NCBI GenBank assembly: GCA_020432165.1
Contig: JAGQGU010000036.1
Span: forward strand, 1 to 33,539
DNA length: 33,539 nt
Reading direction: 5' to 3'
Source of the DNA: Thermomicrobiales bacterium
Lineage (GTDB): Bacteria > Chloroflexota > Chloroflexia > Thermomicrobiales > UBA6265
Shown: piece by piece, positions 15,190 to 33,539 of the stretch
How positions within the stretch are numbered: position 1 is the first letter of the stretch
Layout: every line of letters starts with the position of its first letter
Notes under the pieces: model-generated
The model's database searches: none
Told to the model about the DNA's origin: nothing
The model's input: only the letters and a program-made list of their open reading frames with translations
Made by a program: the position numbers and the translations under genes

Positions 15190-15819
15190 TCACTCATTAG
15201 GGAGACGAACAAAGCGCTCAGCCAGTTCCATCCCTGCTGGCGTTGATTGCAGGTATTCACGCAATCGACTTCGGCCGCGTGAAATGCGCGATTTCACCGT
15301 GCCAACCGCCGTGTTCATGATGTCCGCAATCTCGTCGTAGCCGTAACCCTGAACATCGCTGAGGACGATGGCGAGTCGCTGATCCTCAGGCAGTTGCAGC
15401 AGTGCCTGTTCCAGAAATGCACTCATCTCGCCGCGCGTACTGTACTGCTCGGGATGCTCACTTACGCTCACCGTGGCCCATTCCGGCTCGGATTCGAAAG
15501 GCTGGGCATCCAGGCTGGCAGCGGGCTTACGTGCTTTCGAACGCAGCATGTCATACGTACGATTTGTGGCGATGCGCAGCAGCCACGGCCGCACGATGCC
15601 GCCGCGGAAGCTATCGATCGCGTTCCAGGCGCGAATGAATGAATCCTGTGTTGCATCCTCTGCCAGGTGCGGATCACGCAACATGCGCAGGCACGTTGAA
15701 TAGACGGCTCGTTGATGCCGTTCCACAATCAGATTGAACGCAGCGAGATCGCCGCCCTGTGCCAGCACAATGAGCCGCTGATCTTCTTCGTTTGGATCCT
15801 GCTCCGTAATCTCCGTCAT
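15190..15819 (-). CDS. ECF RNA polymerase sigma factor (RpoE/SigW-like)
   Basis: A 209-residue extracytoplasmic-function sigma factor. Region 2 (about residues 25-95) shows FNLIVERHQRAVYSTCLRML, DPHLAEDATQDSFIRAWNAIDSFRG and PWLLRIATNRTYDMLRSKAR. Region 4 (about 140-195) shows ALLQLPEDQRLAIVLSDVQGYGYDEIADIMNTAVGTVKSRISRGRSRLREYL. It directs RNA polymerase to a small regulon, probably including its own operon. I chose the ATG at 15819 because of the GTGGGGA just upstream; an ATG at 15858 would add 13 residues without a ribosome site. It is followed by its zinc-finger anti-sigma factor and the SIMPL gene. Confidence 0.92.
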   Translation of the reverse strand: MTEITEQDPNEEDQRLIVLAQGGDLAAFNLIVERHQRAVYSTCLRMLRDPHLAEDATQDSFIRAWNAIDSFRGGIVRPWLLRIATNRTYDMLRSKARKPAASLDAQPFESEPEWATVSVSEHPEQYSTRGEMSAFLEQALLQLPEDQRLAIVLSDVQGYGYDEIADIMNTAVGTVKSRISRGRSRLREYLQSTPAGMELAERFVRLPNE

Positions 15820-15900
15820 GGTCCCCACATCATGCCCCGGCTCTGAATAAGGCCTCATTCTAGATTAACATGCGATGTGTGACGATGGTTACGATACCGG

Positions 15901-26896: not shown

Positions 26897-27274
26897 ATGT
26901 CTCAGGCAACCACTATTGCTCATCAGAAGGCGGTTCATGCCAGTTTGCAAGAGATGGCAACGACGCTCACTGAGGCACTCGGTCGAGTATTGGTGGCTGG
27001 AATTGTCGGTGTACGTAATCCCAAAACAGTCACACGCTGGGTAAACGGAGAAGTGACATCAATCAGAGATCGATACTCTGAGGAGCGGATGTTGGCTCTG
27101 TATCAGATAGTCGTGTTTATGCAGGAGTACGAAGCCGACGAAACAATTCGAGCATTCATGATTGGTATGAATCCAGTGCTGGACGATGCCTCACCTGCTA
27201 TGGAATTGCGCGAGGGGAATTTTGACAACGTCATGGGTGCCGCCAAAGTGATGATCACGGGTGGTTACGCGTGA
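26897..27274 (+). CDS. Antitoxin of a RES-type toxin-antitoxin pair (Xre/MbcA/ParS-like)
   Basis: A 125-residue protein placed directly before a RES-domain toxin, as antitoxins of this class are. The middle has a helix-turn-helix-like stretch (ALGRVLVAGIVGVRNPKTVTRWVNGEVTS), compatible with the antitoxin DNA-binding fold, and a C-terminal region that would mask the toxin (GMNPVLDDASPAMELREGNFDNVMGAAKVMITGG). The link 'GMNPxL...P' followed by a helix resembles the DUF2384/MbcA toxin-binding module. It should neutralise the toxin and repress the operon. GAAAGGA lies 6 nt before the ATG. The stop overlaps the toxin GTG by 4 bp. Confidence 0.75.
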   Translation: MSQATTIAHQKAVHASLQEMATTLTEALGRVLVAGIVGVRNPKTVTRWVNGEVTSIRDRYSEERMLALYQIVVFMQEYEADETIRAFMIGMNPVLDDASPAMELREGNFDNVMGAAKVMITGGYA

Positions 27275-27999
27275 CCGTCCTATCTGATCTGCAACAGTAT
27301 GGGATTACGCTCGATGAGGCTGTCTGGCGAGTGGTGTCCAAACGCTTCAGCCCCATGGCGGCACCACCGCGGTCATTGCAGGGTGAAAGTCGATTCGACG
27401 ACCCGCTGATCGGCACTGATGATGGTGGTAGCGGTTACTCAGTGCTCTATGCGGCCACTGAACCTAAAGCAGCTTTTCTCGAAGTCCTATATCAGTTTCG
27501 TCCAGCGATCCAGGCCGTAGCGGGATTTGCAGCGGATATGGTTCTCGATGTTGCTGAACGCGATCGCTTTCTCGATCCGGAAGGTCAGGTTATGCCCTCC
27601 TGGATGCGGCAGACCCAACTGAGTTCTGCCCAGCTTATGCCTGATGCCCCGTTGTTTGATCTCACAGACCCAGGTGCGATCCAGATGTTGCGACTCTTTT
27701 TGGCGCCATCGTTGATAGCGCTCGGGGTTGCTGATCTGGATTTTGGCGAAGTACTTGGAACCAATCGTCAACTCACGCGTGCGATTAGCAGATGGCTGTG
27801 GTCGCTTTCGGCGTCATCTGGCATTCCCTTGTTTAGTGGGATTCGATATAGAAGCAGACTCGATCCGAGTTGTTTCTGTCTTGCCCTCTTTGAGGATCGT
27901 TTCCGAGTCATCGGAGAGGTGAGCACGGAGACCATTACAACGCATTCTGCGGGATTCGCGGAGGCAGCGGAGATCTTAAGACTTCGCATTCCCGGATAG
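27271..27999 (+). CDS. RES-domain toxin (NAD+-degrading type)
   Basis: A 242-residue RES-family toxin. The fold motif is seen from residue 19 on: WRVVSKRFSP, then GESRFDDPL, SGYSVLYAATEPKAAFLEVLYQFRP. The conserved arginines (Arg20, Arg41), tyrosines and Glu71 are in the family positions. Characterised members (MbcT, and the Photorhabdus and Pseudomonas RES toxins) destroy NAD+ and stop growth. The C-terminal half (IRYRSRLDPSCFCLALFE) carries the closing Ser/Cys strand typical of RES. At 242 residues it is longer than the usual 150-190, so there may be an insertion in the middle. It starts with GTG in a GTGA overlap with the antitoxin. Confidence 0.8.
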   Translation: MTVLSDLQQYGITLDEAVWRVVSKRFSPMAAPPRSLQGESRFDDPLIGTDDGGSGYSVLYAATEPKAAFLEVLYQFRPAIQAVAGFAADMVLDVAERDRFLDPEGQVMPSWMRQTQLSSAQLMPDAPLFDLTDPGAIQMLRLFLAPSLIALGVADLDFGEVLGTNRQLTRAISRWLWSLSASSGIPLFSGIRYRSRLDPSCFCLALFEDRFRVIGEVSTETITTHSAGFAEAAEILRLRIPG

Positions 28000-28023
28000 C
28001 GATACTCTTTTCCCTCTCATCCC

Positions 28024-28047
28024 GTTACCACTTCTGAACACGGCTTT
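28024..28047 (+). promoter_or_regulatory. Weak ECF-like promoter match, module 1
   Basis: GTTAC (28024-28028) is followed after 15 nt by CTTT rather than the GCGT found at the same distance in modules 2 and 3. The -35-like half matches, the -10-like half does not. Confidence 0.25.
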
Positions 28048-28062
28048 CGCTGAGGTGATGGG

Positions 28063-28635
28063 ATGTACGCGCAGATGCCAGACAACACAGCATCGGATGA
28101 TGAGCTTACGATCATCGCTGCGGCATTGCGCGACCCGGCAGCATTTGCTCCGCTCTACGAACAACATGCCCCCGACATCTACCGCTTCTGCTACCTGAGA
28201 CTAGGCCAGCGCGAAGCCGCCGACGATCTCACCGCCAAAACCTTCATCCGCGCTATCGAGCGCTTGCATCAATACCGACCCAAATCCGGCGCGACATTTC
28301 GCAGCTGGCTCTTCGCGATCGCGCGCAACCTGCTGGCTGACGAATGGCGACGGCGTCGAGATATCCGCCTTATCCCTCCGATTGAGGATCTGACGCACGA
28401 CGACTATCCCGGACCCGAGCAACTTGCCATTCATCTTACCGAGATGGATCGATTGCGTGCCGCCTTGCAGTATCTGCCCGATCGCCAACGCGAGATCGTG
28501 GAGTTGCGCATGGTGGGATTCAACACCGATGAGATCGCCACAACGATGAATACCACTATCGCCGCCGTGAAGTCCGCCCAGGCGCGTGCCTACCGCACGC
28601 TGCGTGAACACCTCTCCGAAGGAGTCGAACCATGA
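28063..28635 (+). CDS. ECF sigma factor, module 1
   Basis: A 190-residue ECF sigma factor. Region 2 shows FAPLYEQHAPDIYRFCYLRLG, EAADDLTAKTFIRAIERLHQY and GATFRSWLFAIARNLLADEWRRRR. Region 4 shows ALQYLPDRQREIVELRMVGFNTDEIATTMNTTIAAVKSAQARAYRTLREHL. There is no C-terminal extension. Wording and residue choices match the sigma factors of modules 2 and 3, so the three are paralogs, this one the most distant. The ATG at 28063 has GAGGTGATGGG upstream; an ATG four codons later cannot be excluded. Its stop is in an ATGA overlap with the membrane partner, so the two are translationally coupled. Confidence 0.92.
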   Translation: MYAQMPDNTASDDELTIIAAALRDPAAFAPLYEQHAPDIYRFCYLRLGQREAADDLTAKTFIRAIERLHQYRPKSGATFRSWLFAIARNLLADEWRRRRDIRLIPPIEDLTHDDYPGPEQLAIHLTEMDRLRAALQYLPDRQREIVELRMVGFNTDEIATTMNTTIAAVKSAQARAYRTLREHLSEGVEP

Positions 28636-29801
28636 GGATACTCCATCGCGCCTCTCGCACTGACGAAATCGATCAGGCGCTAAACGCCCTTGTCAGTCGG
28701 CGGCCATACGACCCGGAGACTGCTTTGGTCTCCGATGTGATCGATACCCACACGCAGGCGATGTCCGCGCTGCGTTCTGATCCGGCGGCAACGGGCCCCG
28801 CTGCCGGGACATGGAATAGAGTGCTGCGCGCCAATGCGCAGCCAACAGCGAAAGGACAAGGAACAATGTCCGCAACAGCCACACTTCAGTCCCCACTACC
28901 TGGAGCAATCTCCGCACCGGCCAGGAAGCAAGCGGGAGGATTCAGCCATTTCGTGAACATCGCTGCCAGCGTTCTGGTGGTCGCGGCCATCGCGTTCAGT
29001 GGCTGGTTCGCCACTATGCATCTCCAGCCATCTGGTGACAACAGCAATGGTCTGCTTGGTATGGCGCAAGGCACACCAGGACTCGACAGTGCGACATGTG
29101 ATGTCGAGCCACTATCCGTTGATGAAGTAATGGCAATTGTGGAGAATCCATATTCTGCTTTTGATCACGACCTAATCACATCAAGAGATTGGCTCAAGGT
29201 CTGGGAGGAAAAGACAGGCTACGACCTCCTTGAGACCAACTCCCCGGCGATAGATCAGCAACTGCTTGACGGGTTTACCTATCCCGCAACTCAACCAAGT
29301 TTCGATGGTGCAGTCGATAGGGCAAATGGCTTTCTGGTTTGCGCTCAGAAAGGGACAATTGGCCAGGTGTTCGTCTATATGGATCCCAAGGAGATTCAGA
29401 GAATCGTGTTGGCGAATCATCCAGTTTATCGTAGCGAAGAACAGGTGCGCGCAACTGTAATAGAGTTGATGGAGATGCCGGGTTCAACGTTTGTTTTCCC
29501 CGGTGGTGATACTCTCCATGCTAGTAGCCTAAGTTTGGCAGTCAATCCAGAGATTGACAGTGCACTTGTTGCGCAAGGTGCCGGTGTCAGTAGATATGAT
29601 GCTACTCGGGTGATGATGTTTGGCATCATTGCTACCGATACCGATGGAACGGTTGTCTATCAGTCCGATGCCACCGGTGTTGCTTCACCAGTCGCCGGTC
29701 TCGAAAGGACTGAACGCTTCCGGCTGATTATTAAGCAGTCTTCCATTGATGGTCAGTGGTACGTTTTGGCGATTTTGCCCGATATGATCTACGTGATTTA
29801 G
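28632..29801 (+). CDS. Membrane partner of ECF sigma factor, module 1 (putative anti-sigma/sensor)
   Basis: A 389-residue single-pass protein with no family I can name. The cytoplasmic part (1-107) includes DEIDQALNAL and TWNRVLRAN (61-68), with no HxxxCxxC zinc motif. The membrane helix is about 108-128 (VNIAASVLVVAAIAFSGWF). The outside part has a TPGLDSATCDVEPLSVDEVMAIVENPY segment (Cys156), then NGFLVCAQKGTIGQVFVYMDP (Cys237), a hydrophobic VMMFGIIATDTDG strand and a final SIDGQWYVLAIL. This order resembles an NTF2/SnoaL-like fold, an inference only. From its overlap with the sigma gene and topology I infer anti-sigma function. A terminator follows. Confidence 0.8.
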   Translation: MRILHRASRTDEIDQALNALVSRRPYDPETALVSDVIDTHTQAMSALRSDPAATGPAAGTWNRVLRANAQPTAKGQGTMSATATLQSPLPGAISAPARKQAGGFSHFVNIAASVLVVAAIAFSGWFATMHLQPSGDNSNGLLGMAQGTPGLDSATCDVEPLSVDEVMAIVENPYSAFDHDLITSRDWLKVWEEKTGYDLLETNSPAIDQQLLDGFTYPATQPSFDGAVDRANGFLVCAQKGTIGQVFVYMDPKEIQRIVLANHPVYRSEEQVRATVIELMEMPGSTFVFPGGDTLHASSLSLAVNPEIDSALVAQGAGVSRYDATRVMMFGIIATDTDGTVVYQSDATGVASPVAGLERTERFRLIIKQSSIDGQWYVLAILPDMIYVI

Positions 29802-29879
29802 ACCAGCTAGATAGCGACCCTGCATACCGGGCCGATGAGATTAGCCGCCGTGCTACTGGATAGGTATGTCAAAACGAGA

Positions 29880-29907
29880 GACCGGGGCATCATTGCCCCG
29901 GTCTTTT
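29880..29907 (+). terminator. Terminator between ECF modules 1 and 2
   Basis: GACCGGGGCA (29880-29889) pairs perfectly with TGCCCCGGTC (29894-29903) around TCAT and is followed by TTTTGCGTTA. The hairpin and the next bases are nearly the same as at 31671-31699. Confidence 0.9.
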
Positions 29908-29928
29908 GCGTTAAGTCACATCGCTATT

Positions 29929-29952
29929 GTTACGTTTGTTGTGTCCACGCGT
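29929..29952 (+). promoter_or_regulatory. Candidate ECF promoter, module 2
   Basis: GTTAC (29929-29933), 15 nt, GCGT (29949-29952), then 28 nt to the ATG at 29981. Spacing and boxes are the same in module 3, although the bases between them differ, which is what selection on a bipartite ECF promoter would leave. Confidence 0.5.
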
Positions 29953-29980
29953 ATTACCTATCAAGCGGTGGAGGAGTGGT

Positions 29981-30535
29981 ATGGCGCACAACGGAATCGA
30001 TCCGTCCATGGAGGACGATGCCATTGTGCAAAGGGCGCGCAAGAACGTCGACGATTTTGCTCCGCTCTATGATCGATACGCTCTTTCCATGTACCGCTGG
30101 ATGTGCCGGGAAACCGGAGACGCCGAACTTGCTGCCGATCTCACCGCCCAGGTTTTCGTGCAGGCGCTGCAGCGCTTGCATCAGTACGATCCCCGGCGTG
30201 GGGCGACATTTCGTGCCTGGCTCTTTGCTATTGCCCGCAATCTGCTGCGTGATAGCTGGCGACGTTACAAGCCGGGGCCATTGCTCGCTGAGTTGGTCGA
30301 TCAGCGGCCCGGGCCAGAGGAACTGGCACTGCACCGAACACTGATGGACGATGTGCGCGCAGCGCTCGAGGCATTGCCGGAGAGGCAGCGAGAGACGATC
30401 GAACTCCGCCTCGCCGGACTCACCCATCGTGAGATCGCGGAGATTCAGGGCACGAGCGAAAACGCGGTAAGGATGGCGCAATCTCGAGCCATGAAAACGC
30501 TACGGGTGCTCCTGCACCAGGGAGTTAAGACATGA
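29981..30535 (+). CDS. ECF sigma factor, module 2
   Basis: A 184-residue ECF sigma factor. Region 2: FAPLYDRYALSMYRWMCRETGD, ELAADLTAQVFVQALQRLHQYDP and GATFRAWLFAIARNLLRDSWRRY. A short linker with RPGPEELALHRTLMDD. Region 4: ALEALPERQRETIELRLAGLTHREIAEIQGTSENAVRMAQSRAMKTLRVLL. It is strikingly similar to the module 3 sigma factor from the first residues (MAHNGIDPSMEDDAIV versus MNHNGVDPSREDDAIV). The ATG at 29981 is set by GGAGGAG 4 nt upstream and by the same layout in module 3. The stop is in an ATGA overlap with the next gene. Confidence 0.94.
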   Translation: MAHNGIDPSMEDDAIVQRARKNVDDFAPLYDRYALSMYRWMCRETGDAELAADLTAQVFVQALQRLHQYDPRRGATFRAWLFAIARNLLRDSWRRYKPGPLLAELVDQRPGPEELALHRTLMDDVRAALEALPERQRETIELRLAGLTHREIAEIQGTSENAVRMAQSRAMKTLRVLLHQGVKT

Positions 30536-31611
30536 CCGATACGGATGCATCCTTTGACGAACTACGAAATCTGATGAATCAGGCTCACCGCACATTCACT
30601 GGACGGGACGATGTTCCCGCTGAGATCTGGATGCGCGTGCGATCCCAAATACCCCAGAACCCACCAACGGAGATACCCCCCATGGAGACCACACTGACCC
30701 AATCCCCTGCATACAACGTGCCGCCCCGATCAACACCTGGTCGACCATCAACGATCTCTCGATACCTCAACTTCGCAGCGAGTGTTGTTATCGTTGCCGC
30801 CATTGCGTTCGGTGGCTGGTTTGCCGCCCTAAACCTGCAACCATCTCGCGACAATAGCAATGGGTTGCTTGGTCTTGCCCAAAGCACACCCGTCGCCCAA
30901 ACGTGCGATGTCGAACCGCTTACGGTTGACCAGGTGATGCAGATTGTGAAGAACCCCTGGGAGTTCGGATTTAGCCAACTGAACCCATCAACCGAGTTCT
31001 CCGGTCCGGAGTTTACTGAGGTGAGCTTGAGACCTTCTACCGCAGAGTTCGATGCGGCGACAAAGACAAAACCAGCAGAGAAGGATTTTGAAGACGCGAT
31101 AGCGGTCGCGAATTCCTATCTTGCCTGCTTACCCACTGCTTCTTGGGGACAAGTCTGGGCGTTGAGCGATCCGGTATGGGTTCAGAGTTCGATTTTGGCC
31201 CACTTCCCGGTTTTCGCGAATGAATCTGAGGTACGTGAATTTATCGAGGGGCGTATTGATGAACCGCTCTCCGTGGACCACAACCCCCTGGACGATATCT
31301 ATGCACTGGCGGATGGTCAATCGATTGTGGCGAATCCGGATATTGGTGCGGCACTGACGATCTGGCCAGGCAATACCTCGAATAGCGCGATGCTGTTTGT
31401 TGCTTTCGGTGTTCTGGTAACAAATGACGATGGCAGCATTGTGCTGGAGTCGAATGCTGAGGGTGAGTCCCTTGAGTATCAAACTGGAAGCTCCAGGCAG
31501 CGACCGACTATCGTCGTCGGGCAATCCAGCGCTGATGGCAGCTGGTACATTGCCCCGTGGTTGAGCTCATATGCGGCGCTCTGGGAGTATCAATATGCCA
31601 CTGGTGAGTGA
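30532..31611 (+). CDS. Membrane partner of ECF sigma factor, module 2 (putative anti-sigma/sensor)
   Basis: A 359-residue paralog of the module 1 and 3 partners. The cytoplasmic part (1-78) has FDELRNLMNQAHR and EIWMRVRSQI (31-40), the same W-x-R helix as in module 3. The membrane helix is about 79-99 (LNFAASVVIVAAIAFGGWFAAL). Just outside it, LQPSRDNSNGLLGLAQSTP is almost the same as in module 1. The outside domain holds TCDVEPLTVDQVMQIVKNPW (Cys125) and NSYLACLPTASWGQVWALSDP (Cys199), then FPVFANESEVREFIEG, an acidic stretch and a final SADGSWYIAPWL. No zinc motif. The inferred role is to hold the module 2 sigma factor at the membrane. A terminator follows. Confidence 0.8.
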   Translation: MTDTDASFDELRNLMNQAHRTFTGRDDVPAEIWMRVRSQIPQNPPTEIPPMETTLTQSPAYNVPPRSTPGRPSTISRYLNFAASVVIVAAIAFGGWFAALNLQPSRDNSNGLLGLAQSTPVAQTCDVEPLTVDQVMQIVKNPWEFGFSQLNPSTEFSGPEFTEVSLRPSTAEFDAATKTKPAEKDFEDAIAVANSYLACLPTASWGQVWALSDPVWVQSSILAHFPVFANESEVREFIEGRIDEPLSVDHNPLDDIYALADGQSIVANPDIGAALTIWPGNTSNSAMLFVAFGVLVTNDDGSIVLESNAEGESLEYQTGSSRQRPTIVVGQSSADGSWYIAPWLSSYAALWEYQYATGE

Positions 31612-31670
31612 CCCCACCTGGCTAACATGATCCGTAGAACCCTCACGCGTACTTCGTCGGAATTCTCAAG

Positions 31671-31699
31671 GACCGGGGCATTATCGCCCCGGTCTTTTT
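31671..31699 (+). terminator. Terminator between ECF modules 2 and 3
   Basis: GACCGGGGC (31671-31679) pairs with GCCCCGGTC (31686-31694) around a 6-nt loop and is followed by TTTTTGCGTTAGTC. It is a near copy of the hairpin at 29880-29907, so the intergenic block was duplicated together with the genes. Confidence 0.9.
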
Positions 31700-31720
31700 G
31701 CGTTAGTCCAGAATGGCACC

Positions 31721-31744
31721 GTTACTCTTTACCCACCCATGCGT
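31721..31744 (+). promoter_or_regulatory. Candidate ECF promoter, module 3
   Basis: GTTAC (31721-31725), 15 nt, GCGT (31741-31744), then 28 nt to the ATG at 31773, with GGAGGAG at 31762-31768. Box positions relative to the start are the same as in module 2. Confidence 0.5.
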
Positions 31745-31772
31745 TCTGTACTGCAGTCGGCGGAGGAGTGCG

Positions 31773-32327
31773 ATGAATCACAACGGAGTTGATCCGTCCC
31801 GGGAGGACGATGCCATTGTGATGGCCGCACGCGACGATGTCGATGCGTTTGCACCGCTCTACCAGCGATATTCAGGTCCGATCTTTCGCTGGATGTATCG
31901 GGAGACTGGTGATGTGGATATTGCCAACGACTTCACCGCTCAGGTGTTTGCGCAGGCACTCCAGAATCTGCATCGATACCAGCCACGACAGTCCTCGAGC
32001 TTTCGGAGCTGGCTCTTCACGATCGCCAGGAACCTCCTCCGCGATTCCTGGAGGCGATACCGACCAACATCGTTGCCGATGCACATGCCCGATCATCGAC
32101 CTGGGCCGGAGGAGATCGCTATTCGTCGCACCGAAATGGATGAGTTGCGAGCAGCGTTCAGTTCTCTTCCGGCGCGACAGAGGGAGATTGTGGAGCTTCG
32201 GCTTACTGGATTGAGTATGCAGGAGATTGCCGATATCCAGGGCACGAGTGTGGAAGCCGTGAGAACAGCGCAGACACGCGCGTTCAAAACCCTCCGCGCA
32301 CTCCTGACGAAGGAGGTAGCCAGGTGA
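31773..32327 (+). CDS. ECF sigma factor, module 3
   Basis: A 184-residue ECF sigma factor, the closest paralog of module 2. Region 2: FAPLYQRYSGPIFRWMYRETGD, DIANDFTAQVFAQALQNLHRYQP and SSFRSWLFTIARNLLRDSWRRY. The linker again has RPGPEEIAIRRTEMDE. Region 4: AFSSLPARQREIVELRLTGLSMQEIADIQGTSVEAVRTAQTRAFKTLRALL. The length equals that of module 2. The start ATG at 31773 is set by GGAGGAG 4 nt upstream. Its TGA overlaps the GTG of the membrane partner. Variation in the linker and helix-turn-helix (THREIAEIQGTSENAVRM versus SMQEIADIQGTSVEAVRT) suggests related but not necessarily identical promoters. Confidence 0.94.
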   Translation: MNHNGVDPSREDDAIVMAARDDVDAFAPLYQRYSGPIFRWMYRETGDVDIANDFTAQVFAQALQNLHRYQPRQSSSFRSWLFTIARNLLRDSWRRYRPTSLPMHMPDHRPGPEEIAIRRTEMDELRAAFSSLPARQREIVELRLTGLSMQEIADIQGTSVEAVRTAQTRAFKTLRALLTKEVAR

Positions 32328-33367
32328 TAGATGACGATTTGTTTCTGAACGATTTACGGTATCGAATCGAATCGGCCCATCGTGCCAATCCGGGCACATA
32401 TGAACCTGCGACCGATGTGTGGCAGCGAGCCAAATCGCAGATCGATTCCGGAAAACCCAGGAAGGACACGACCATGATTCCAGCATCAACTCTCGCCATA
32501 CCAGCGCCGCAACTCCGGAAGCCCGCTCGCAGAGAATGGGGGCACTATCGTAACATCGCTGCCATCCTCGCTTTGGTCGTCGCCCTCGTGTTGGGAGGCT
32601 GGTTCGCCAGGAACCAACTGCCACCAGAGTCGGAACCGACCTCTCGTTTCGCCGTGCTCGGATTGCAAACTGAGGGAACGGCCTGCGATGTCGAGCCACT
32701 CACCGTTGATCAGGCGATCGTGATCATGAAGAATCCATTCACCGTCATCGACCTGGTGCTCTACGACATGACTGGAATGCACGCAAAGATGTCTGGGCAA
32801 GAATACGCGGTTCCTGCGCACTCCCAAATGACTCAGCTTATGACCCATAACCCGAGAAACGATATTGATCAGGATGAATGGGCCGAGACGTTGGAGCTCG
32901 GGAATCGATATCTGGATTGCATTCAAAACGGGACTGTTGGACAGGTGCTTGCGCTCATGGATCCGTTTGTTGTTCAGGGTTACCTGCGTGACCAGTTGCC
33001 TCTCTTCATGAACGAGGAAGCCACTCGTTCATTTTTGGCCGATCTTTTGCAAGGGAGCGCCATTGAGTATGGTTGGACGGATTCGGATCAACTCGCCTTT
33101 GTCTCCGACAAGGTGCTTCAGATCAACCCCGACTTTGGATTGATTTATGCTGACTCAACGGTGCTGTCTCGCAACGGGTTCTACACAGAGGTGATTGGTG
33201 CACCTGTATTGTTCAGCCACTCAGATGGCACTGTCGCCAGCGCTCCCACCTTCGCTGGTATGCCATTTGGCATAAATGTCGAGGTGACCAGGTTCGCCCG
33301 GAATGTCTTCTTCGTGAAGTCCGCATTTGATGGTCAGTGGTATGTGTTTGGCATCTTCATTCCATGA
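32324..33367 (+). CDS. Membrane partner of ECF sigma factor, module 3 (putative anti-sigma/sensor)
   Basis: A 347-residue paralog of the module 1 and 2 partners. The cytoplasmic part (1-76) has LNDLRYRIESAHR and DVWQRAKSQI (31-40), aligned without gaps to module 2. The membrane helix is about 77-95 (RNIAAILALVVALVLGGWFA). The outside domain has ACDVEPLTVDQAIVIMKNPF (Cys121), then NRYLDCIQNGTVGQVLALMDP (Cys199), LPLFMNEEATRSFLADLL, INPDFGLIYADST and a final AFDGQWYVFGIF. No zinc motif. It starts with GTG in a GTGA overlap with the sigma gene. No module-type terminator follows; the structured dispersed repeat begins 27 bp after the stop instead. Confidence 0.8.
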   Translation: MIDDDLFLNDLRYRIESAHRANPGTYEPATDVWQRAKSQIDSGKPRKDTTMIPASTLAIPAPQLRKPARREWGHYRNIAAILALVVALVLGGWFARNQLPPESEPTSRFAVLGLQTEGTACDVEPLTVDQAIVIMKNPFTVIDLVLYDMTGMHAKMSGQEYAVPAHSQMTQLMTHNPRNDIDQDEWAETLELGNRYLDCIQNGTVGQVLALMDPFVVQGYLRDQLPLFMNEEATRSFLADLLQGSAIEYGWTDSDQLAFVSDKVLQINPDFGLIYADSTVLSRNGFYTEVIGAPVLFSHSDGTVASAPTFAGMPFGINVEVTRFARNVFFVKSAFDGQWYVFGIFIP

Positions 33368-33394
33368 CGGGTTGATGCTTTCAACCTGACCTAC

Positions 33395-33518
33395 AGCGGA
33401 TTCGCTATGTGTTGTCATGTATAAGATCGGTAGCAAGGGAGCTTGTCTCCCCTTGGGGCAGATAAACTGCCCCACTACCAGTCCATGGGTGTGTCAGTAC
33501 GTCCGGAACCGGCTCTAA
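33395..33518. repeat. Dispersed structured intergenic repeat, copy B
   Basis: A full copy of the element at 12237-12394. It starts AGCGGATTCGCTATGTGTTG, has GGTAG/CTACC (33429-33433/33475-33479) enclosing GGGAG/CTCCC and GGGGCAG/CTGCCCC (33455-33461/33467-33473), and ends CCGGAACCGGCTCTAA. Differences from copy A1 are single bases, mostly outside the stems or compensated (GGTAGC...ACTACC). It may end transcription of ECF module 3. Confidence 0.85.
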
Positions 33519-33539
33519 GCGCATAGTCAAAAGTTTTGA

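Follow-up and report, generated by a model that had tools for sequence, protein, structure and literature searches.

The window, by which we mean the whole 33,539-nt stretch analyzed here, is the complete contig C24 of a 3.2-Mb draft genome of a Thermomicrobiales bacterium (G000). It carries three successive cassettes, each consisting of an ECF sigma factor gene and a candidate membrane anti-sigma factor gene that overlaps it by 4 nt (Table 1); cassettes 4 and 5 of the same genome lie at the start of contig C48. A close relative, the Thermomicrobiales MAG ACE_NR_CHLO14 (JAMLHR01; G003), is also a draft, and the tool's grouping puts it in one genus with G000. It contains counterparts B1 (contig C95), B2 and B3 (C93), and B4 and B5 (C37); where the two species are compared, cassettes 2 and 3 of G000 are called A2 and A3.

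Table 1. Features of cassettes 1 to 3 within the window
Feature	Position	Strand	Remark
Candidate -35 box GATAC, cassette 1	28001..28005	+	
Candidate -10 box CGTT, cassette 1	28023..28026	+	17 nt after GATAC; overlaps GTTAC at 28024
ECF sigma factor, cassette 1	28063..28635	+	Sister clade, different recognition helix
Membrane anti-sigma candidate, cassette 1	28632..29801	+	
Terminator-like hairpin before cassette 2	29879..29904	+	11 bp, loop of 4, then TTTT
-35 box GTTAC, cassette 2	29929..29933	+	
-10 core CGT, cassette 2	29950..29952	+	GCGT = 29949-29952, first base varying between species
17 nt after -10 core, cassette 2	29953..29969	+	Cassette-specific; 17/17 identical to orthologue B2
GGAGGAG ribosome-binding site, cassette 2	29970..29976	+	
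ECF sigma factor, cassette 2	29981..30535	+	Sigma70_r2 + Sigma70_r4_2; ATG at 29981
Membrane anti-sigma candidate, cassette 2	30532..31611	+	Extracellular part ~30838-31608, groups with G003 cassette 3
Terminator-like hairpin before cassette 3	31668..31697	+	
-35 box GTTAC, cassette 3	31721..31725	+	
-10 core CGT, cassette 3	31742..31744	+	GCGT from 31741
17 nt after -10 core, cassette 3	31745..31761	+	16/17 identical to orthologue B3
GGAGGAG ribosome-binding site, cassette 3	31762..31768	+	
ECF sigma factor, cassette 3	31773..32327	+	ATG at 31773
Membrane anti-sigma candidate, cassette 3	32324..33367	+	Extracellular part ~32621-33364, groups with G003 cassette 2

Composition of the cassette array

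The array is preceded by a pyruvate kinase gene (identified by Pfam in the window and read by eye at the start of C95) and followed by genes for a 62-aa protein and a peptidase-like protein, both read by eye. Since these flanks agree, C24 and C48 are very likely parts of a single array, separated by a gap. G003 has in addition two partial anti-sigma genes (L053 1-739, L054 1-545) and, where a contig ends (L055, G003:C95, 1-57), one more promoter that is almost the same as the B2 promoter, so that it probably has more cassettes and its array is partly unassembled. In a search of 32 genomes of the family, the clade of sigma factors 2 and 3 was confined to G000 and G003, its eight members scoring 330-355 bits and all other matches at most 215. 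The window holds another ECF sigma gene (15190-15858, minus strand), which has no upstream GNNAC-N16/17-CGT.

Proteins P0001-P0003 match Sigma70_r2 and Sigma70_r4_2 above the Pfam cut-offs, and thus consist of regions 2 and 4 alone, as ECF sigma factors do. The 184-aa sigma factors of cassettes 2 and 3 stop right after region 4, with no fused C-terminal regulatory domain. Their best NCBIfam profile is BldN (TIGR02952), with 99.5 and 104 bits against a family cut-off of 206.45 bits, and the best PDB match is 6dxo, which we take to be the BldN-RsbN complex. The anti-sigma candidates P0005 and P0006 have no Pfam match, and the anti-sigma profile NF052375 gave E-values from 4e-05 to 0.012 in 6 of the 8 proteins scanned, far below its cut-off. 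For the extracellular domain, an NTF2/cystatin-like fold is a candidate: the AlphaFold model had a mean pLDDT of 58, the best Foldseek match had E 0.38, and VIA reached a best Z of 5.8 with several NTF2- or cystatin-like rows. No dN/dS value exceeded 1 (one pair had no usable dS), and therefore there is no sign of diversifying selection.

Strong hairpins occur between the cassettes, with z-scores of -7.8, -5.3 and -5.2 for three stretches; a fourth, taken from the beginning of C48 but misplaced, gave 0.24.

Probable promoter boxes and their distribution

The original prediction described GTTAC-N15-GCGT-N28-ATG, together with GGAGGAG, upstream of sigma genes 2 and 3. This arrangement is exact, and all coordinates agree with our own (Table 1). 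The strict pattern has two matches in the window versus a mean of 0.20 in 100 dinucleotide shuffles, two being reached in 2 of the 100. GTTAC-N15-GCGT-N28-start is also exact at cassettes 5 (on C48, with GTG as the start), B4 and B5. At B2 the second box is TCGT and the ATG lies one codon later, at B3 it is ACGT, and the boxes of G000 cassette 4 are degenerate (GTCAC-N15-GCCT-N28-ATG). Because the base before CGT varies, we take GTTAC-N16-CGT as the invariant core. It is present in 7 of 8 array promoters, where it forms a bipartite motif upstream of the sigma gene itself, with a spacing of 16 +/- 1 and a CGT -10 box.

Among the paralogues of G000, identity was 0.90 in the -35 box and 0.88 in the -10 box versus a chance-like 0.31 in the 15-nt spacer; the corresponding values for G003 were 1.00, 0.79 and 0.36. 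We scored all 595 placements of a 5-nt block and a 4-nt block between -70 and -28 in six promoters, with B2 and B3 omitted as near-copies of their orthologues. The best pair was GTTAC/GCGT, and its score of 52/54 was reached by 0 of 100,000 random column sets.

A broader form of the motif is found across the order. Among 49 other ECF genes, 26 have GNNAC-N16/17-CGT upstream (N16 in 10, N17 in 16), versus a mean of 5.18 and a maximum of 13 in resampled sequences and a single occurrence on the reverse strand, while spacings of 11-15 and 18-22 were seen at 1-5 of the 49 genes, which is the background level. The remaining 23 genes had no motif in the searched stretch. The full set comprised 57 protein-found loci (the 8 of the array and 49 others, these from relatives in the genus, family and order), excluding genes with less than 160 nt upstream or alignments shorter than 120 aa; the background was first-order Markov resampling, and orthologues and paralogues were retained among the 49. 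The middle bases are AT with N17 in module 1, B1 and one C83 sigma gene, and CC with N17 in another C83 sigma gene, C87 and the G003 relative of C87; TA, TG, CG and AC were also seen. The result is a readable rule, GNNAC-N16/17-CGT with middle bases that differ by sigma clade, and it extends ECF promoter logic to a little-studied order of Chloroflexota.

This clade dependence also changes the picture for module 1 (cassette 1), whose description as keeping only the GTTAC half is wrong. Its GTTAC at 28024 sits 39 rather than 52 nt before the ATG and is not conserved, the orthologue B1 having GTTCC; it also shares bases with the CGTT of a stronger candidate. As the middle box bases differ by clade, with AT-N17 in both module 1 and B1, we assign GATAC-N17-CGTT as the candidate promoter. 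The mean identity of region 4.2 is 75% within cassettes 2-5 versus 49% to module 1, and box type tracks the region-4.2 helix; cassette 4, with its diverged boxes, has a diverged helix too. The gene pair directly before module 1 has a toxin-antitoxin-like layout: a small gene without a Pfam match is overlapped by the RES-domain gene (PF08808) downstream of it (26897-27274 and 27271-27999). The -35 box of module 1 falls just past the stop codon of the RES-domain gene.

The boxes had further been proposed as a search pattern for a regulon, and the genome scan did not support this. In G000, GTTACN15GCGT had 14 matches versus 50 for the reversed-pattern control, and GTTACN16CGT had 45 versus 186, both fewer than the control. 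We placed the 45 core matches of G000 one by one against genes, using calls from a home-made hexamer scorer. Only the array promoters of cassettes 2, 3 and 5 have promoter geometry (28 nt before the gene). Of the others, 39 are in predicted genes or ORFs, and 3 either lie between genes or overlap a start; the L079 match (1187-1210 of the locus), inside an ORF or at its end, was counted as coding. The nearest non-array matches are in L085 (128 nt before a signal peptidase gene), L172 (gene 217 nt downstream) and L176 (overlapping a start), and their spacers do not recur in the G003 list of 50 matches. With the strict and relaxed patterns, nothing convincing with promoter geometry was found outside the array in G000 and G003. 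A longer pattern allowing up to 3 mismatches had 85 matches versus 111 for its control; the array members have 0, 1, 1 and 3 mismatches, and C104:48866 has 1. The L085 motif (1501-1524), before the signal peptidase gene (PF10502), is a lone possible target outside the array.

Conservation between species and exchanged sensor domains

Between orthologous promoters, conservation begins sharply at GTTAC. The -35 box is 5/5 identical in all three orthologue pairs (cassettes 2, 3 and 5, in this order hereafter), while the 50 nt upstream of it, compared without gaps, are identical at 25, 16 and 10 positions. Spacer identity is 10/15, 15/15 and 5/15. The 17 nt after CGT, a stretch chosen post hoc with the data already seen, are identical at 17/17, 16/17 and 16/17 positions, whereas between cassettes 2, 3 and 5 (six paralogue pairs) the same 17 nt agree at only 6-9 positions; this kind of stretch was also noted at L045 1922-1938. 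Identity at the 4-fold sites of the sigma genes is 0.48, 0.55 and 0.51. This rate is exceeded by the 32 non-box bases in cassette 2 (P 1.9e-05) and cassette 3 (P 1.1e-07), and not in cassette 5 (P 0.076). The statement that the bases between the boxes are mostly different stands for the spacer as compared between cassettes (31%); the bases outside the boxes are nevertheless not free, the 17 nt after CGT being conserved between the species.

A second feature emerged from the anti-sigma candidates. Between G000 and G003, cassettes 2 and 3 have swapped their extracellular domains (L053, G003:C93), whereas the promoter, the sigma factor and the cytoplasmic part have stayed together. Sigma identity is 89% for A2-B2 and 79% for A3-B3, and the cytoplasmic anti-sigma parts of the same pairs share 59% and 48%. 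In the extracellular part, A2-B3 share 53% and A3-B2 65%, versus 23% and 28% for the same-number pairs; the B3 protein is cut short at a contig end (257 residues). The switch point is just past the membrane segment. The trees agree with these identities, with support of 100/100 for {A2,B2} and 88/92 for {A3,B3} in the sigma tree and of 100/99 for both {A2,B3} and {A3,B2} in the extracellular tree. For groups defined once the identities had been seen, AU tests reject {A2,B2} (2.9e-52) and {A3,B3} (7.6e-47) for the extracellular part and {A2,B3} (9.5e-11) and {A3,B2} (2.4e-4) for sigma. Cassettes 5 and B5 pair consistently (sigma 78%, extracellular part 59%), and the extracellular parts of cassettes 1 and B1 pair weakly (31%). 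The promoter is therefore co-inherited with the sigma factor and the cytoplasmic anti-sigma domain and not with the sensor, as a sigma-read promoter predicts.

We also considered an assembly chimera as the source of the exchange. Exact matches shared by cassettes 2 and 3 reach no more than 19 nt in G000 and 13 nt in G003, and such short matches make a chimera unlikely, though both genomes are drafts.

Candidate promoter function and its alternatives

The proposal of a bipartite ECF promoter with strict spacing is supported, as the arrangement is constrained among paralogues and across two species and is part of the order-wide pattern. Judged from sequence comparison, the GTTAC-N16-CGT sites are very probably the ECF promoters of their own operons. 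They are most likely autoregulated, as motifs of this sort are usually interpreted to be, and this agrees with the pairing of box type and sigma clade; the pairing is not independent evidence, since both follow phylogeny.

Our main reading, to which we give a probability of about 0.85, is that each cassette is a sigma/anti-sigma operon, insulated by hairpins and driven with feedback from its own predicted ECF promoter, GTTAC-N16-CGT. In it we infer the sigma dependence, the autoregulation, the start site and the signal. The extracellular domain of the anti-sigma factor would respond to a signal and the sigma factor would be released; region 4 would read GTTAC and region 2 CGT, and RNA polymerase would start a few bases downstream of CGT. 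More sigma and more anti-sigma factor would then be made, combining positive and negative feedback. Sister clades would follow the same design with another -35 core, as in module 1. The search turned up no target beyond the array, which is unusual for a sigma factor and counts against this reading, as do the TAC in place of the usual AAC in the -35 box, the degenerate boxes of cassette 4 and the 23 of 49 other ECF genes that lack the motif; targets with looser boxes may exist outside the array.

The predicted array promoters are of the same kind as known autoregulated ECF promoters. Published spacings agree, with CGTAACN16CGTTGA for sigma-BldN (PMC2375139), TGTCACA-n16-CGTC for ECF41 (PMC3426412) and a rigid spacer required by SigH (PMC6411747). 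The AAC signature of the -35 box given in PMC3426412 and PMC8103513 is not seen in GTTAC, which has TAC, a core close to that of BldN. The Streptomyces sigma-BldN/RsbN system has the same -35/-10 spacing, one different base in the GTNAC core and a membrane-anchored anti-sigma factor like the array candidates (PMC8103513); BldN acts on bldM (PMC2375139), whereas the array motif was found with promoter geometry at its own operons only. ECF41 likewise has bipartite, strictly spaced promoters and neighboring genes as the sole reported targets (PMC3426412); it differs from the array in its -35 box and its fused C-terminal regulatory domain.

Sibling sigma factors could cross-activate one another's promoters. 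In the strongest form, which we rate slightly short of even odds, the sigma factors of cassettes 2-5 would all read all GTTAC-N16-CGT promoters, so that several sensors feed one output rather than separate circuits. The identical boxes of cassettes 2, 3, 5, B4 and B5 and the similarity of region 4.2 within cassettes 2-5 favor such an OR-gate. However, the stretch of 17 nt after CGT varies from cassette to cassette while being kept between species, and the region-2 loop ahead of the conserved FRxW motif also varies by cassette; both hint at promoter discrimination. One reading is that region 2 may use the 17-nt stretch for cassette-specific discrimination; in SigH, the specificity loop touches a flipped -10 base (PMC6411747).

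It is improbable that the boxes serve another factor, such as the housekeeping sigma factor or a DNA-binding regulator. The conservation of the 17 nt could reflect a second regulator, but no sigma-70-like promoter was found on the plus strand of 27900-33539 (5 were found, all on the minus strand, with 3.5 expected by shuffling), and the motif is enriched before ECF genes generally, solely at the 16/17 spacing. Constraint at the RNA level, to which the cassette-by-cassette conservation of the leader segment might point, is very unlikely, as the folding of four leaders was not stronger than that of shuffled sequences (z 0.2 to 1.0) and the -35 box is upstream of any likely start. Least plausible of all is a functionless relic of recent duplication: the cassettes are paralogous and the terminator, promoter and ribosome-binding site were duplicated together, but the spacers have diverged far more than the boxes, and orthologous promoters exceed 4-fold-site identity in cassettes 2 and 3 (P 0.076 in cassette 5).

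The surprising parts of the array are the conserved cassette-specific tag and the sensor exchange. We tentatively suggest, while thinking it rather likelier wrong than right, a sensor-shuffling platform in which promoter, sigma factor and cytoplasmic anti-sigma part form a fixed chassis, the tag after the -10 core keeps promoters orthogonal, recombination near the membrane segment moves sensors, and the only detectable target is the platform itself. If true, the same pair of sensors would be wired to opposite sigma factors in the two species. The exchange amounts to a natural rewiring experiment, with the same two sensor domains on exchanged sigma factors, and lets one ask whether sensor identity can be separated from promoter specificity, and also whether the bases that directly follow the -10 core keep apart paralogous cassettes whose boxes are identical.

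A limited literature search found no report of ECF arrays in Thermomicrobiales or of sensor exchange between sigma cassettes. The SigI/RsgI systems of Clostridium thermocellum (PMC10575876) resemble the array in having several paralogous sigma/anti-sigma pairs per genome, exocellular sensor parts and paralogue-specific promoters; they differ in that SigI is not a two-domain ECF sigma factor, the promoters have an A-tract and CGWA, and the sensors are of other kinds.
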